Positions 13,047 through 48,155 of a stretch of 55,116 nucleotides of DNA are shown in pieces. Position numbers and translations under genes: made by a program. The DNA lies in assembly GCA_028285315.1 (NCBI GenBank), contig JANQPU010000309.1, forward strand, positions 1 to 55,116, given 5' to 3'. Below the pieces are notes generated by a model. The model saw only the letters and a program-made list of their open reading frames with translations, had not been told where the DNA came from and searched no databases. This DNA is from Acaryochloris sp. IP29b_bin.176 (GTDB lineage Bacteria > Cyanobacteriota > Cyanobacteriia > Thermosynechococcales > Thermosynechococcaceae). Numbering within the stretch: the first letter of the stretch is position 1; the number at the start of each line of letters is the position of its first letter.

Positions 13047-14261
13047 ATGGCAGATTGGCAAACCATTCCAGGAGGGGTAACTGCTCCCCAGGGATACCGC
13101 GCAGCAGGCATAGCAGCAGGCTTAAAGCCTTCGGGCGCTAAAGATTTAGCTTTAATAGTTTCTGATGCCAAGGCCCATGCAGCTGGGGTGTTTACGACGA
13201 ATAGGGTGAAAGCCGCCTGTGTGACCTACTGCCAAAAACGGATCCAAACAGGTCCCACCGAGATTCAGGCCATTTTGTGTAATTCTGGCCAGGCAAATGC
13301 TGGGACTGGCCCCCAGGGGGACGCAGCGGCTCTCGCCAAAGCGAAGAGTGCAGCTCAGACTTTGGGGCTTATTCCAGAAGCGATTTTAATTGCCTCGACA
13401 GGGGTGATTGGTGAACAAGTTCCGGTTGATAAGGTTGAAGCAGCCATGCCTCAATTGGTAGAGCAGCTCTCTGCCCAGGGGTCTGATCAGGCAGCCCAGG
13501 CGATTATGACCACCGATTTAGTGCCGAAAACGGTTGCCTTAGAAACTCACATCGGTGGGCAGCCTGTTCGGGTGGGTGGCATTGCCAAAGGCTCGGGCAT
13601 GATTCATCCCGATATGGCGACCTTGCTAGTGTTTGTCACCTGCGATGCCCAGGTAGAACCGACGTTATGGCAGCAAATGATTGGGCGGGCTGCTGATCGC
13701 AGTTTTAATCAAGTGACAGTGGATGGTGATACCAGTACTAACGATATGCTGTTGGCGTTGGCTAATGGCCAATCTTCTGCTCCAGCCATTCAGGGAGGGC
13801 CTGAGGCCGATCAATTGGAAGCTCTGGTCACGGAAGTTTGTCGGCAGTTGGCACAAAAAATTGCTCGGGATGGAGAAGGAGCGACTTGCCTGATTGAAGT
13901 GCAGGTTCATGGGGCAGTAGATGAGGCTGGAGCCCAGAAAATAGCCAAAACTATTGCAGGGTCGATGTTGGTGAAGTCGGCTGTGTTTGGTCGTGATCCC
14001 AATTGGGGCCGGATTGCGATGGCTGCGGGTCGGGCAGGCATTGAGTTTGATGCTACACAGCTCCATATTCAATTGGGTGATTTTGTGTTGATGCATCAAG
14101 GAACACCCCAAGCGTTTGATCGCAAAGCCGCCAGCCAATATTTACGCCAAGACCCTGTGATCATTCAGGTTGGTGTCGGTGATAGAACAGGGGTGGGCAA
14201 AGCTTGGGGCTGTGATTTAAGCTACGACTACGTCAAAATTAATGCTGAATATACGACCTAA
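13047..14261 (+). CDS. argJ: bifunctional glutamate N-acetyltransferase / ornithine acetyltransferase ArgJ
   Basis: 404 residues, normal length. It moves the acetyl group from N-acetylornithine to glutamate, and in many organisms also uses acetyl-CoA, thus making the cyclic arginine pathway possible. The self-cleavage site is visible as KGSGMIHPDMATLLVFVTCDA, with Thr192 as the nucleophile of the mature beta chain. Other hallmarks are GVFTTNRVKAA, CNSGQANAGTG, TVDGDTSTND and GRDPNWGRI. The ATG at 13047 gives MADWQTIPGGVTAPQGY, a typical start. It is a single gene with no adjacent arginine genes. Confidence 0.97.
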   Translation: MADWQTIPGGVTAPQGYRAAGIAAGLKPSGAKDLALIVSDAKAHAAGVFTTNRVKAACVTYCQKRIQTGPTEIQAILCNSGQANAGTGPQGDAAALAKAKSAAQTLGLIPEAILIASTGVIGEQVPVDKVEAAMPQLVEQLSAQGSDQAAQAIMTTDLVPKTVALETHIGGQPVRVGGIAKGSGMIHPDMATLLVFVTCDAQVEPTLWQQMIGRAADRSFNQVTVDGDTSTNDMLLALANGQSSAPAIQGGPEADQLEALVTEVCRQLAQKIARDGEGATCLIEVQVHGAVDEAGAQKIAKTIAGSMLVKSAVFGRDPNWGRIAMAAGRAGIEFDATQLHIQLGDFVLMHQGTPQAFDRKAASQYLRQDPVIIQVGVGDRTGVGKAWGCDLSYDYVKINAEYTT

Positions 14262-14485
14262 ATCGCTCTGCATAATTTTGAGAACTTCTGATGAAAATGA
14301 CATCCTGAATCATGGGGCAGCAATAGCATTATGCTGCTGAGACGGTCAAGTTCGTTTTAGCTGCTTTGGTAATTGACGGCTAAAGATATGCTAACTCTCA
14401 TGAGTGTAATCCGACTGGATGACTAACTGGACTACACCTCTTCAAAACTTGACTGATTGATGAATACCACTCACAAATCGCTTTG

Positions 14486-14788
14486 CTAGTTTATATTCAT
14501 AAGTCTCTTTAATTCAGCATCTTCAAGTTCTTCAAAATACTTTTTACTCTTGTTAGATCTAAAAAATGTAGAATGAGTATATTCCTGGCCTGCAACTTTT
14601 TTCTCTTTAGAGATTATCTCTTCTATTATGCTTACTGAACCCTGATAAAGATCCCAGATATCTTGAAAACTGCTAAGGGTCAGATCTATATTCTTACGTC
14701 TTGCAACTTCACCCAAAATGTATAGGATGTAGTAGGACGCATGCATAATATATGATTTTTTGTCATACAAGGACTGAATCGTTGACAA
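14486..14788 (-). pseudogene. detached C-terminal piece of the AIPR-family gene
   Basis: A 100-codon open frame that starts only with TTG and overlaps the end of the AIPR gene by 26 bases. Removing one copy of the 10-base tandem repeat at 14777-14796 joins the frames: the AIPR codons for ...KSTI continue directly as QSLYDKKSYIMHASYYILYI. The joined protein would be about 583 residues, closer to what I recall for AIPR proteins. I therefore read it as the broken C-terminus (a helical, Lys/Glu-rich tail) rather than a separate gene. An independently translated small partner cannot be excluded, since the overlap could allow coupled translation. Confidence 0.75.
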
Positions 14789-16247
14789 TCGTTGACTTAA
14801 CGCTATTCTTTTCTAACTCAATCTTTTCAAAGAGGCTATAAGCAAGCAAGACTTTATCGGCATTAATAGTTTCGTTAAACACTTCTTCATACTTATCACC
14901 AAAAATAAGCCCTTTCCTATTCTTTGTTTCATAGGGAGATCGGTTAAAGAAAGCCATCAAAACTTGTCCTGCTTTTTCTGCATCTACTCTCTTTTTGAGA
15001 GGCTTATCTTTATACTGATTTTTCTTTCTTTCGTAAAATCTATCTTTTGCAATAAATTCTTTTTCTAGATTAATTTGTATATAATCAACAGATCTAATAT
15101 CACGACTTTTGACAGGATTCTGACTATTAGTATATTCTGCAATTCTGGTGCTTAGCTTAGGATCTTTGACCTCGCAAATTCGACAAAGGATTTCAATGTT
15201 GCCAAATTTACTTGAGTCTTCAATAAAAGCTTCATATAGTGAGTGAATAGTCTGGCTACCATTCACAATCTGTATATTCTTTAAATCAACAATTGGAGAT
15301 CTTCTGGATGAATAAGAAAATGAATCACATGTTAGTGTGACGCCGTTATTGTAATAGAAGAATTTACCATTTTCTTCTGACATTGCAGTGGTCTTTATGT
15401 TTTTGTTGATTGATGACTTCTTTAGATAGATTCTCACATTATCATTAAATGCATCTTCAAGAATTTTGTAATTCTTCATTCCTTCATATTCATCATCATC
15501 CATATCTGCTTTATCCCTTAGTACTTCGTCATCAATTACAATCCTTACTAGATCTCTTGCGTCTATATTGACTATGAGTGCACGGATGTTTCCATCTGAT
15601 TTCTCAAAGAAGCATCTGTCAATTCCTTTGATTCTTCCATTTACTATTTTCTTATCTGCAGAGGCAAGATATTTAATTAACTCAGGCATCAAGTGATATT
15701 GAATATCCACGTTTCTGCCAATACTTCTCTCAAGCCTTTCCTTTTCAGACTTCTCGATATTCTTATAATAATTTGCACAAAAATGAAATTTAAATTTTGG
15801 ATTTTGACTCTCAAATATTTTCCAGATATCTTGAATTTTTGATGCTAGAACAGGATTAACTTCCTGGATTAATGTTTCTTCTTGTTGGTTTACTGCATTT
15901 AAGAAGCTAAGGATTTTATCGATTTCCCCAGAAGGAAGGTTATTATTCTTTGCTTTACTAAAAGACTCAGCATATTTGAAGTTAAACATATGGATAATTG
16001 GAGGGGCTGATGCTTCATCAATAAAAAGTGCATCAACTCCTCTGTCGTGTCCGGATGTTTGATTAGTAACTCTCAAAAAATGACCGTCAGTTATTGAATC
16101 TCTGATCTCATCTTCTTGAAGCCCAAGTATGAGATCAATAACGACAAAATAAAAAGCTGATGAGAGTGCTTCAAAACCGTTATCTTGCTGTTTTTTCTCT
16201 GTAAGTGTTCTGATGAGTGAAAATTCTTGAAGGGTTGGTGCAGTCAT
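14763..16247 (-). CDS. AIPR-family (abortive-infection phage-resistance) protein, frameshifted near the C-terminus
   Basis: 494 residues. AIPR motifs: NNGVTLTCDSF (about residues 297-307), NIQIVNGSQTIHSLYEAF, and EYTNSQNPVKSRDIRSVDYIQ, followed by FYERKKNQYKD. The N-terminal part has a possible PD-(D/E)xK nuclease core: GHDRGVDALFIDE, then IIHMFNFKYAE. Family members occur in phage-defence loci, and nuclease action is an inference. The last seven residues (VNDSVLV) arise from the frameshift. The gene is clearly richer in A/T than argJ or the genes beyond 16.8 kb, which suggests horizontal transfer. No methyltransferase or other defence gene lies next to it. Confidence 0.82.
   Translation of the reverse strand: MTAPTLQEFSLIRTLTEKKQQDNGFEALSSAFYFVVIDLILGLQEDEIRDSITDGHFLRVTNQTSGHDRGVDALFIDEASAPPIIHMFNFKYAESFSKAKNNNLPSGEIDKILSFLNAVNQQEETLIQEVNPVLASKIQDIWKIFESQNPKFKFHFCANYYKNIEKSEKERLERSIGRNVDIQYHLMPELIKYLASADKKIVNGRIKGIDRCFFEKSDGNIRALIVNIDARDLVRIVIDDEVLRDKADMDDDEYEGMKNYKILEDAFNDNVRIYLKKSSINKNIKTTAMSEENGKFFYYNNGVTLTCDSFSYSSRRSPIVDLKNIQIVNGSQTIHSLYEAFIEDSSKFGNIEILCRICEVKDPKLSTRIAEYTNSQNPVKSRDIRSVDYIQINLEKEFIAKDRFYERKKNQYKDKPLKKRVDAEKAGQVLMAFFNRSPYETKNRKGLIFGDKYEEVFNETINADKVLLAYSLFEKIELEKNSVKSTIVNDSVLV
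14777..14796. repeat. 10-base tandem duplication causing a frameshift
   Basis: AATCGTTGAC occurs twice in direct contact (14777-14786 and 14787-14796); on the coding strand this is GTCAACGATT twice. Ten is not a multiple of three, so the duplication changes the frame. It brings a TGA stop at 14763-14765 to the AIPR reading frame. Slippage could add or remove a copy. Confidence 0.92.
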
Positions 16248-16816
16248 CTGTTCTAAGAAGTTATCGTGATGATTTTAGCTATAAAACCTAAATATTTTGT
16301 TAATGAACAGACCTATCATAGCTGAAAGATAATTGGAATAACTATTTCACATCTACTGACAAGGCTGCTTTAAATTTCTGAGCAAAAAACTAGAAATATC
16401 ATTCTTGCGTATGTAAACTCTTAATTCTGCGTTTGCCTCTAACGAGTTTCTAATGTCTTTGAATTCCTTATAGCAAACTTGAAATAGCTCCGCATCTACT
16501 ACGCTCTATACTCTACAACTTTCAATACAAAGATTCTATTTACTCAGTTAAACGGTATTCGAGCCACTTAATTCTAAACAAGACGATATCAGTGAAAGAA
16601 TTACCCAATTTGTAGTCCCCATTGACAAAAACAACTGATAGACGTGGGCGTGACATCACTTATCAGGAAAACACAGGCTTAGATTATTCTATTTTTCCTC
16701 TGCATGAAGTGATAAAAGAGGATTGAGTTAAGATAAGGATGCAATATTGTAGTACTCGTACTACAATATTGCCAGTTTCTTCCCATTTACTCTAGGCAGC
16801 CTGAGAACTACAGATC
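16248..16816. promoter_or_regulatory. 569-base divergent region between the AIPR gene and a nucleotidyltransferase
   Basis: AT-rich spacer with no supported coding region. It must carry the promoters of both flanking genes. The only striking element is the perfect 15-base inverted repeat at 16741-16772, close to the start of the nucleotidyltransferase. Confidence 0.5.
16741..16772. repeat. perfect 15-base inverted repeat, 2-base spacer; likely operator
   Basis: GCAATATTGTAGTAC (16741-16755) is the exact reverse complement of GTACTACAATATTGC (16758-16772), with TC between. It ends 44 bases before the ATG at 16817, where a repressor site or a leader hairpin would act. No T-run follows on the plus strand, so a terminator is unlikely. 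No regulator gene adjoins it. Confidence 0.85.
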
Positions 16817-17728
16817 ATGAAACCTCATTTAATCGTACCTGTGGGTACCCAAGTGGTCAGTCGGGTTGATGTCAAAACGGAAACAGGTGTCTGTTTAGCG
16901 GGAGCAGTAGGCAAGATTGTTCAAGCTCCCACTGATAATTCCCATGCCTACGGAATTGAGCTACCCGATGGTCGCTGTTTGCGCTTGCAACGGCAACAGT
17001 TTAGCCTGCGCAAACAGTATCAAACTCAGGGATTAGATCAGACGGTTGACTTTTTGGCAGACTACAATCTGCAAGACTACGTAATTTATCGGTGTGTCGT
17101 CGGGTCGCGTGCCTATGGCTTGGATGACCAGTATTCAGATTGCGATCGCAGATGCATCTACCTCCCCCCTGCCCCCTTGCATTGGTCCCTATATGGCATT
17201 CCCGAGCAAATCGAGGATAAACCCGCTCAAGAATGCTATTGGGAGCTGCAAAAGTTTATCTTGTTGGCCCTCAAAGCCAATCCCAATGTGCTGGAATGCC
17301 TCTATTCCCCCCTAATTGAAACGGCAACGCCCTTGGCGAAAACGCTTTTGGACCAGCGCACCATGTTTTTATCTCGGTTGGTCTATCAAACCTACAATGG
17401 CTATGCCCTGTCCCAGTTCAAAAAGATGGAGCAGGATTTACGGTCCAAAGGCCAGATCCGTTGGAAGCATGCCATGCATCTGATTCGGCTGTTATTATCT
17501 GGGATTATCGTTCTCAAGGAAGGGTTTGTGCCCGTCGATATGAGTGACTATCGCGAGCGTTTACTGGGGATAAAATACCAGCACTGGACTTGGTCCCAGG
17601 TGGATCAATGGCGGCTTCAGCTTCACCAGGAGTTTGAGCAAGCCTTTGCCCACACCCCACTTCCAGAACGCCCCAACTATGAACAGGCCAACGCTTTTTT
17701 AATTGAAGCACGGCAAAGCATGGTGTAA
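16817..17728 (+). CDS. COG3541-type predicted nucleotidyltransferase A
   Basis: 303 residues. After an N-terminal beta-rich domain of about 75 residues (MKPHLIVPVGTQVVSRVD..., resembling a small barrel), a polymerase-beta-like nucleotidyltransferase core begins: YRCVVGSRAYGLDDQYSDCDRRCIYL, giving the G-S motif and the D-x-D metal pair. Later VLECLYSPLIE and RWKHAMHLIRLLLSGI match the family. The extra N-terminal domain is absent from the second copy at 20540. The target nucleotide or acceptor is unknown. A DUF-type protein follows after 20 bases with its own good ribosome site, so the two are probably cotranscribed. Confidence 0.82.
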   Translation: MKPHLIVPVGTQVVSRVDVKTETGVCLAGAVGKIVQAPTDNSHAYGIELPDGRCLRLQRQQFSLRKQYQTQGLDQTVDFLADYNLQDYVIYRCVVGSRAYGLDDQYSDCDRRCIYLPPAPLHWSLYGIPEQIEDKPAQECYWELQKFILLALKANPNVLECLYSPLIETATPLAKTLLDQRTMFLSRLVYQTYNGYALSQFKKMEQDLRSKGQIRWKHAMHLIRLLLSGIIVLKEGFVPVDMSDYRERLLGIKYQHWTWSQVDQWRLQLHQEFEQAFAHTPLPERPNYEQANAFLIEARQSMV

Positions 17729-45790: not shown

Positions 45791-48155
45791 CCCCCAATGG
45801 CATCTTGTTCCAACTGCCACACCCCCTGAGTGGCTCATTACTGACATTCAGCGGTTAGCACCAGAGGTATCTGGCCAGTATCTGGCACAATTGCTCTGGC
45901 AACGGGGAATGCATGCTCCCCAATTAATTCCAGGTTTTTTAGATCCGAATCATTACCAACCGACTTCCCCTGCTGCCTTTGGGGTGGAAATTGAAAAAGC
46001 TGTTCAACGGCTGAAACAAGCCCGCGATCGCAACCAAAGAGTAGCCATTTGGGGCGATTTCGATGCCGATGGTATCACGTCTACAGCAGTCTTCTGGGAC
46101 GGATTAGGACAATTTTTCCCTCAGAATCACTCCCTCACCTACATTATCCCCAATCGCATTACCGAATCTCATGGTCTAAATCGAGCTGGGATTGAGCGGT
46201 TAGCAGCCCAAGACTATCAGCTGATCATCACCTGTGATACGGGCAGTACGAATCTGATCGAGATTGAATATGCCAGCGAACTGGGCCTAGATGTGATCAT
46301 CACAGATCATCACACCTTGCCCCCAGAACGTCCTCCCGTTATCGCAATCATTAACCCGCGCTCTTTGCCCTCAGATCATCCTTTAGCTCATCTTTCTGGG
46401 GTGGCAGTGGCTTATAAGCTCGTGGAAGCCCTCTATACAGCTTTACCTGAGGTTCCCCAGCAGCCCCTAGACCATCTATTAGATTTAGTGGCGATTGGCC
46501 TGATTGCCGATCTGGTGGCGCTCCAAGGGGATTGCCGTTACTTGGCCCAACGCGGCATCCAGCAGCTACAGCAACAGCTAACCCAGCGCACTCGACCGGG
46601 CATCGCCAAGTTGTTAGAACTCTGTAAACGCAATGGTGATCGGCCCACGGATATTTCTTTTGGTCTTGGCCCCCGTATCAATGCCGTGAGTCGGATTCAT
46701 GGCGAGGCTAGTTTTTGCGTCGAGTTATTGACTAGCAAAGACCCAGTTCGTTGTTGGCAGTTGGCAGAAGAAACTGAACTCGCCAATACACGCCGCAAAT
46801 CCTTGCAAAAAGATGTTCTTAGGCAAGTGACACGCAAGCTAGATCAGCTCGATTTGTCCACAACATCAGTGATTGTCTTGAGTGATCCACAATGGCCGAT
46901 CGGTGTATTGGGCTTAGTCGCAGGTCAGATTGCCCAAACCTATGGCCGACCTACCATTCTTCTGTGTGAAGAGACGGTGGCTGAACACGGCGAAGTTAGA
47001 CTCGCCCGTGGATCAGCTCGTTCAGCGAATCAGATTGATCTATATGAATTGGTTCACAGTCAGGCGAGTTTACTGACCCGTTTTGGCGGACATCCCTTTG
47101 CCGCCGGGTTGAGTTTACCTGTCACTAATATTCCCCTATTGGTCGAGGGGATTAATCAACAAGCTCGGCAGCAGCAGGCCACAAAACCAGCAGCAGTGGT
47201 TCAGGCCGATTTGGTATTGACGCTAGCAGAGTTGGCTGTCAATGGAGGACGCGCCCTATTTAAAGAATTAAAGCTTTTAGAGCCCTGTGGGATGGGCAAT
47301 CCAGTGCCCAAATTCCTGATTCGTAACTGCTGGTTTGATCAGGTCTGGAATGAGAATATTCGCGATCGCAAAGGGAACAAAGTTCAATACATCAAAACCA
47401 CCTTCAATATCTGTGATGCTTCTTTAGAGGCAGGTTTTCCTGGAATATGGTGGGGGCATTATAAAGAGGATATTCCCACAGGTAAATGTGATGCCATTGT
47501 GGAGCTAGATTTTAATACTTATAAAAAACGATACGAGGTACGCCTCGAAGCATTACGCCCAGCAGCAGATCACCTGACCCAAAAAGAAGCATTAGAGTAC
47601 CCCATTGTGGATTGGCGGCAGGGCAAAACAGAGGTTGGGAAAAACCAAGATGTGCTGGTGGTGAATCACTGTCCTGATTCCTGGTCAGCAGTCCAAGGCT
47701 GGAGGAGACAAGCTCAGAATACTGGGAAAGCCCTGGCCGTTGCCTATCAAGACGCTGGTTCACCTGACGCGGTGACGGTATGGAAACGGTTGGTGGGCAT
47801 CGCTAAATTTCTAGCTCGGACGGGGGAAAGCGTTAGGCTGACTCTACTGCAAACCAGGTTAAAGATTGGGCCTCAAGCCTTGCAGATCGGCTTGAAGAGT
47901 TTGCAAGCTTTTGGGTTTACGGTGCATTGCCACAATAATCTTGTCCAAGTCAACATGAATACTGTTGTTGAAGAATTAGCATTAGTGGATCGTCAGCAGG
48001 CCATCCTCAATGTTGTGAATGCTGTGCGAGAAGAACAATTTCAACAACAGTACTTTCAAACGGTATCAGTGGATGTGATGGGAGCAATGGTTTCTAACTT
48101 GCCTGGTTCTGAAGAAGACTCTTCGCAAACAACCACTACCCGCACTCCCATATAA
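45759..48155 (+). CDS. recJ: single-strand 5'-3' exonuclease RecJ
   Basis: 798 residues from the ATG at 45759 (other starts: TTG 45750, ATG 45762). DHH motifs are clear: GDFDADGITSTAVFW, CDTGS, ITDHHTLPPERP, LSGVAVAYKLVEAL, and DHHA1 motifs LARGSARS and FGGHPFAAGLSLP. RecJ trims 5' single-stranded ends in RecF recombination and mismatch repair. The C-terminal 200 or so residues, after the OB-like domain, form an extension (from about residue 620) seen in cyanobacterial RecJ. It overlaps the small ORF upstream, and the exported protein gene follows after 42 bases. Confidence 0.95.
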   Translation: MMPTLLRMPTDPQWHLVPTATPPEWLITDIQRLAPEVSGQYLAQLLWQRGMHAPQLIPGFLDPNHYQPTSPAAFGVEIEKAVQRLKQARDRNQRVAIWGDFDADGITSTAVFWDGLGQFFPQNHSLTYIIPNRITESHGLNRAGIERLAAQDYQLIITCDTGSTNLIEIEYASELGLDVIITDHHTLPPERPPVIAIINPRSLPSDHPLAHLSGVAVAYKLVEALYTALPEVPQQPLDHLLDLVAIGLIADLVALQGDCRYLAQRGIQQLQQQLTQRTRPGIAKLLELCKRNGDRPTDISFGLGPRINAVSRIHGEASFCVELLTSKDPVRCWQLAEETELANTRRKSLQKDVLRQVTRKLDQLDLSTTSVIVLSDPQWPIGVLGLVAGQIAQTYGRPTILLCEETVAEHGEVRLARGSARSANQIDLYELVHSQASLLTRFGGHPFAAGLSLPVTNIPLLVEGINQQARQQQATKPAAVVQADLVLTLAELAVNGGRALFKELKLLEPCGMGNPVPKFLIRNCWFDQVWNENIRDRKGNKVQYIKTTFNICDASLEAGFPGIWWGHYKEDIPTGKCDAIVELDFNTYKKRYEVRLEALRPAADHLTQKEALEYPIVDWRQGKTEVGKNQDVLVVNHCPDSWSAVQGWRRQAQNTGKALAVAYQDAGSPDAVTVWKRLVGIAKFLARTGESVRLTLLQTRLKIGPQALQIGLKSLQAFGFTVHCHNNLVQVNMNTVVEELALVDRQQAILNVVNAVREEQFQQQYFQTVSVDVMGAMVSNLPGSEEDSSQTTTTRTPI

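Follow-up and report, generated by a model that had tools for sequence, protein, structure and literature searches.

Proteins of the AbiU/AIPR family (PF10592; AbiU in PADLOC) are single-gene abortive-infection proteins, and their relatives in phages include the AIPR protein of phage RE-2010, the record of which states that superinfection is prevented. Nucleases of the PD-(D/E)xK type carry the catalytic motif D...(D/E/Q)xK. Some genes are switched by slipped-strand phase variation at a tandem repeat; an example is mod of Haemophilus influenzae, which has more than 30 repeat units (PMC3711429).

The gene described here lies in a stretch of 55,116 nucleotides (the window) from Acaryochloris sp. 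IP29b_bin.176. It shares the domain and the length class of the AbiU/AIPR proteins, but a frameshift divides this copy, and its role in abortive infection is putative. Like mod and similar phase-variable genes, it has a tandem repeat at the frame transition; unlike them, it has only two repeat units, which are absent from its two closest relatives. What sets it apart from other frameshifted defence pseudogenes is that the lesion sits within a short exact tandem repeat. We class the gene as an ordinary defence pseudogene. Our preferred reading, to which we assign a probability of about 0.7, is that a single-gene AIPR/AbiU-type phage-defence gene was acquired between argJ and an RlaP-type nucleotidyltransferase gene and was recently truncated by a net +1 frameshift (Table 1).

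Table 1. Positions of the AIPR/AbiU-like gene, its lesion and its surroundings in the window
Feature	Positions	Strand	Remarks	Basis
argJ, left flank of insert	13047..14261	+		PF01960, 494.7 bits
Low-GC insert	14262..16816 (ends approximate)		about 2.5 kb	composition; site empty in three congeners
Second frame, with C-terminal part of AIPR/AbiU-like gene	14486..14788	-	100 aa	ORF list, tblastn
AIPR/AbiU-like N-terminal frame	14763..16247	-	494 aa; TGA four codons past frameshift	ORF list
Exact 2 x 10-base tandem repeat	14777..14796			TRF; three-way DNA alignment
Putative insertion-sequence end remnant	16651..16721			80% identity to stretches of G001 contigs and of C216
RlaP-type nucleotidyltransferase gene, right flank of insert	16817..17728	+		PF10127, 145.6 bits

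Results and Discussion

One gene in two frames

The 494-residue frame matches AIPR (PF10592) over residues 267-477 with 135.8 bits, against a curated cut-off of 25. The match covers positions 1-242 of a profile of 308, so the domain is incomplete in this frame; the intact homologue from Stenomitos frigidus (L033) covers positions 1-300. The PADLOC AbiU model is matched with an E value of 2.4e-47 from position 6 to position 451 of 537, whereas the matches of L033 and of a homologue in a Pseudanabaena MAG (L034) run on to positions 528 and 534. The frame is classed as a broken AIPR member only; the score against MzaE (NCBIfam NF041935) is 45.2 bits, short of the curated cut-off of 1050. Searched by itself, the 100-residue frame gives nothing significant in Pfam or PADLOC. 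In tblastn it corresponds to residues 491-585 of L033 (62% identity, E 3.8e-32), and the homologue in genome G067 (L005) matches it as well (E 4e-10).

All three homologues are intact single frames of 578-600 residues (L033:5001-6770, an ORF of 600 aa, 75% identity; L034:5001-6758, 586 aa, 73% identity; L005:1228-2961, 578 aa, 54% identity), and we therefore treat the AIPR/AbiU sequence of the window as one broken gene. This is how the preliminary description had read the two overlapping frames, both of which are indeed in the ORF list on the minus strand. None of the three homologues ends near residue 487 and none consists of two separate genes; the window frame is disrupted where theirs are intact, as expected of a pseudogene. 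The frameshift would fall in a variable linker ahead of a predicted C-terminal helical domain. The truncated product would retain a candidate PD-(D/E)xK-like domain at its N-terminus, together with the greater part of the AIPR domain, but would lack about 95 C-terminal residues, so that it most likely defends the cell less well or no longer at all. A putative nuclease motif (D72, N89 and K91 in L033 numbering) is invariant in L033, L034, L005 and the window. Where this cyanobacterial group has Asn in the putative QxK motif, the phage and C290-type AIPR proteins (see below) have Gln.

No close relative of the gene was found at E <= 1e-30 in the six congener genomes searched, and a search of 97 relatives, 388 genomes of the class and the families of G275 (42) and G214 (38) gave no close relative beyond those in G275, G214 and G067. 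The G275 copy encodes a protein 100% identical to L033, and the G214 DNA is identical to L034 over 4,761 bases. The order of G067 (three genomes) added nothing new. Relatives in plasmid and phage records were all under 60% identity, and viral contigs held no relatives when queried with the window protein, alignment A3 or the C290-type protein of L074. With the AIPR protein of phage RE-2010 as query, 11 loci were returned. A scan of genome contigs returned two loci, and the homologues lie in cyanobacteria.

An insert between argJ and the RlaP gene

The gene would have been acquired horizontally, by insertion between argJ and the RlaP gene. Over most of its length the insert has a GC content of about 0.30-0.37, against about 0.49-0.54 in the flanking genes. 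In three congeners the distance from argJ to the next gene is only 117 (G002), 118 (G003) and 7 (G005) bases, and relative to them the AIPR region is therefore an insert. A segment near its right end is 80% identical to G000:C216:298-368 and to segments close to the ends of seven G001 contigs; it is probably the remnant of an insertion-sequence end. Adjacent to the C216 stretch is a weak DDE_5 transposase fragment, below the Pfam cut-off. A perfect inverted repeat, its 15-base arms separated by 2 bases, lies at 16741-16772, upstream of the RlaP gene.

Nature of the lesion

The break lies in a tandem repeat of AATCGTTGAC, which TRF reports as two exact 10-base units; the duplication noted in the preliminary description is thus present and exact. 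Such repeats are commoner than simulated windows predict: the window holds two exact 10-base tandem repeats, whereas two sets of 60 Markov simulations average 0.03-0.05 per window, and a separate run produced none in 30. Near-perfect period-10 repeats (at least 9/10) are not unusual, with three observed against a simulated mean of 1.35. The other exact 2 x 10-base repeat, at 46295-46314, lies within an intact open frame of 801 residues, which we read as recJ.

Pairwise, the window, L033 and L034 align without a single gap column over 1,451 columns of the N-terminal part and 290 of the C-terminal part (1,741 coding columns). The only coding-region gap of the three-way DNA alignment falls inside the repeat, where the window has one extra base. 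The spacing of conserved residues, counted by eye on the alignments, points the same way: L033, L034 and the phage RE-2010 type each have 29 residues between IE and SYY/AYH, and L005 has 25; taking away one base would bring the window to 29, and taking away ten would bring it to 26. The second repeat copy aligns with codons that L033 and L034 also possess. It matches L034 at 7/9 and L033 at 5/9 aligned bases, a joint score equalled or exceeded in 8 of 584 in-frame windows, and is no worse than the first copy (6/10 and 4/10). This comparison with two close relatives, good evidence though not final, suggests a net gain of one base at the break rather than a clean extra 10-base copy, and the earlier attribution of the break to a 10-base duplication is probably wrong, the window being +1 and not +10 relative to L033 and L034.

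A simple recent inactivation by clean tandem duplication would require the ancestral linker to have been three codons shorter. In favour of this, the repeat is exact, and the excess of exact repeats over chance is explained only in part by a net +1 change; moreover, the linker is variable and that of the intact homologue L005 is shorter, at 25 residues, so such an ancestor is conceivable. However, this course of events needs both a 9-base deletion and a duplication in the same place, although the alignment is gap-free elsewhere, and the likeness of the new copy to the relatives, which few in-frame windows equal, would have to be accidental. We consider it improbable. We suggest instead, as the most likely path to the net +1 lesion, that the coding sequence had contained a near-perfect period-10 repeat beforehand, and that the gain of one net base both made this repeat exact and broke the frame.

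Other AIPR genes and the question of sequencing error

The genome has a second AIPR gene on contig C290 (G000:C290:12707-14194; L001:1287-2952), 24-31% identical to the window group. There too, one net extra base disrupts the frame close to the 3' end, some 25-30 residues beyond the window lesion in L033 numbering, and no tandem repeat was reported within the 141 bases examined around that lesion. Two distant AIPR genes of one genome have net +1 breaks near the start of the C-terminal part. Among 30 loci of the C290 subfamily, a count that leaves out four further matches without a locus, 24 are intact, 5 are broken and 1 (L097) is incomplete. The broken ones are C290 itself, L095, L098 (probably by frameshift), and L081 and L102 (by internal stops). 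In L095:2700-2840 (G292) the frameshift is near residue 63, with a 6-base tandem repeat about 30 bases away; in L098:2700-2825 (G071) the probable frame change is near residues 60-63 and is visible over about 15 codons at the edge of the locus. A congener AIPR gene (G001; L019:785-2481) is, by eye, split over three frames and followed by transposase-like ORFs, and a third AIPR frame of the source genome, on C37, starts 82 bases from the contig end. With several damaged members found, broken AIPR genes are evidently not rare.

The source genome is a draft (5.35 Mb, 438 contigs, 87% complete), and a one-base sequencing or assembly error would also produce a single clean net one-base difference with no other decay. 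The authors of GeneTack expect sequencing error, and not a true indel, to lie behind singleton frameshifts validated by BLASTp, which favours this explanation; the same paper holds that frameshifts near the 3' end, which are enriched in general, are more likely indel mutations than errors, which speaks against it (PMC3711429). The extra base, besides, lies outside any long homopolymer. None of 27 ORFs (9,523 aa) of congener G002 shows a frameshift in the window; of two rows flagged in that comparison one reflects paralogues, and the other a congener sequence of 881 residues, the final 249 of which have no counterpart in any frame of the window. On contig C290, a control with 58 ORFs from stretches of G001, G002 and G003 gave no clear frameshift in the 12,360 bases covered by congener ORFs. 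Of the three rows flagged there, one lies antisense to a gene, and the other two are copies of a single 117-residue ORF that is probably spurious. With no clear frameshift in the two controls, the base-level indel rate looks low. We infer that the extra base is real and hold an error to be unlikely.

Age of the break

Neither part of the gene has a further gap or stop. Changes on the window lineage at codon positions 1/2/3 number 39/20/108 in the N-terminal part and 9/7/21 in the C-terminal part, much like those on the L033 (36/22/90 and 3/11/24) and L034 (45/25/95 and 17/6/14) lineages, and give no sign of decay or relaxed constraint. Such an absence is expected of a recent lesion; either the lesion is recent or the extra base is an error. 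Constraint on the C-terminal part would also be seen if the split were tolerated, that is, if a truncated or two-piece protein, made by re-initiation or +1 recoding, still worked, and the +1 break near the 3' end of the second AIPR gene fits that idea. Nevertheless, single frames are found in all three intact homologues and at 24 of 30 C290-subfamily loci, which leaves no conserved recoding site, and a recent lesion explains the constraint equally well. We regard a tolerated split as very improbable.

The preliminary description left the choice between a recent inactivation and a slippage switch. The lack of decay fits a recent break of the frame; the switch finds no such support. In a phase-variation switch, gain or loss of a 10-base unit would turn the AIPR gene off or on. 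An exact tandem repeat does stand at the break, and dropping one copy keeps the frame, as had been claimed and as arithmetic confirms, so that switching is mechanically possible. Slipped-strand phase-variable genes, however, keep a multi-unit repeat at the site; here there are just two units, and L033 and L034 have no repeat at the equivalent position. The similar repeat at 46295-46314 occurs in an intact ORF, and the lesion of the second broken AIPR gene on C290 has no reported repeat. With a two-unit repeat that is absent from relatives, a phase switch is unsupported and, in our estimate, most improbable. It would be just as bold to suppose that minor frame changes where the C-terminal part begins serve to silence the AIPR genes of this genome, and perhaps to reactivate them, with loss of a repeat unit reopening the frame in the window gene.

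Implications

Under the preferred reading, in which the acquired gene was recently truncated by a net +1 frameshift, the locus documents how a mobile defence made up of a single gene was apparently lost very recently. Gain and break can be ordered in time because intact relatives of about 75% identity exist and the congener site is empty. The locus also serves as a caution that a tandem repeat at a break is not necessarily its cause, since the intact relatives point to a net change of +1. Finally, the +1 break in the second AIPR gene of the same genome offers a small lead on the cost of carrying such genes.
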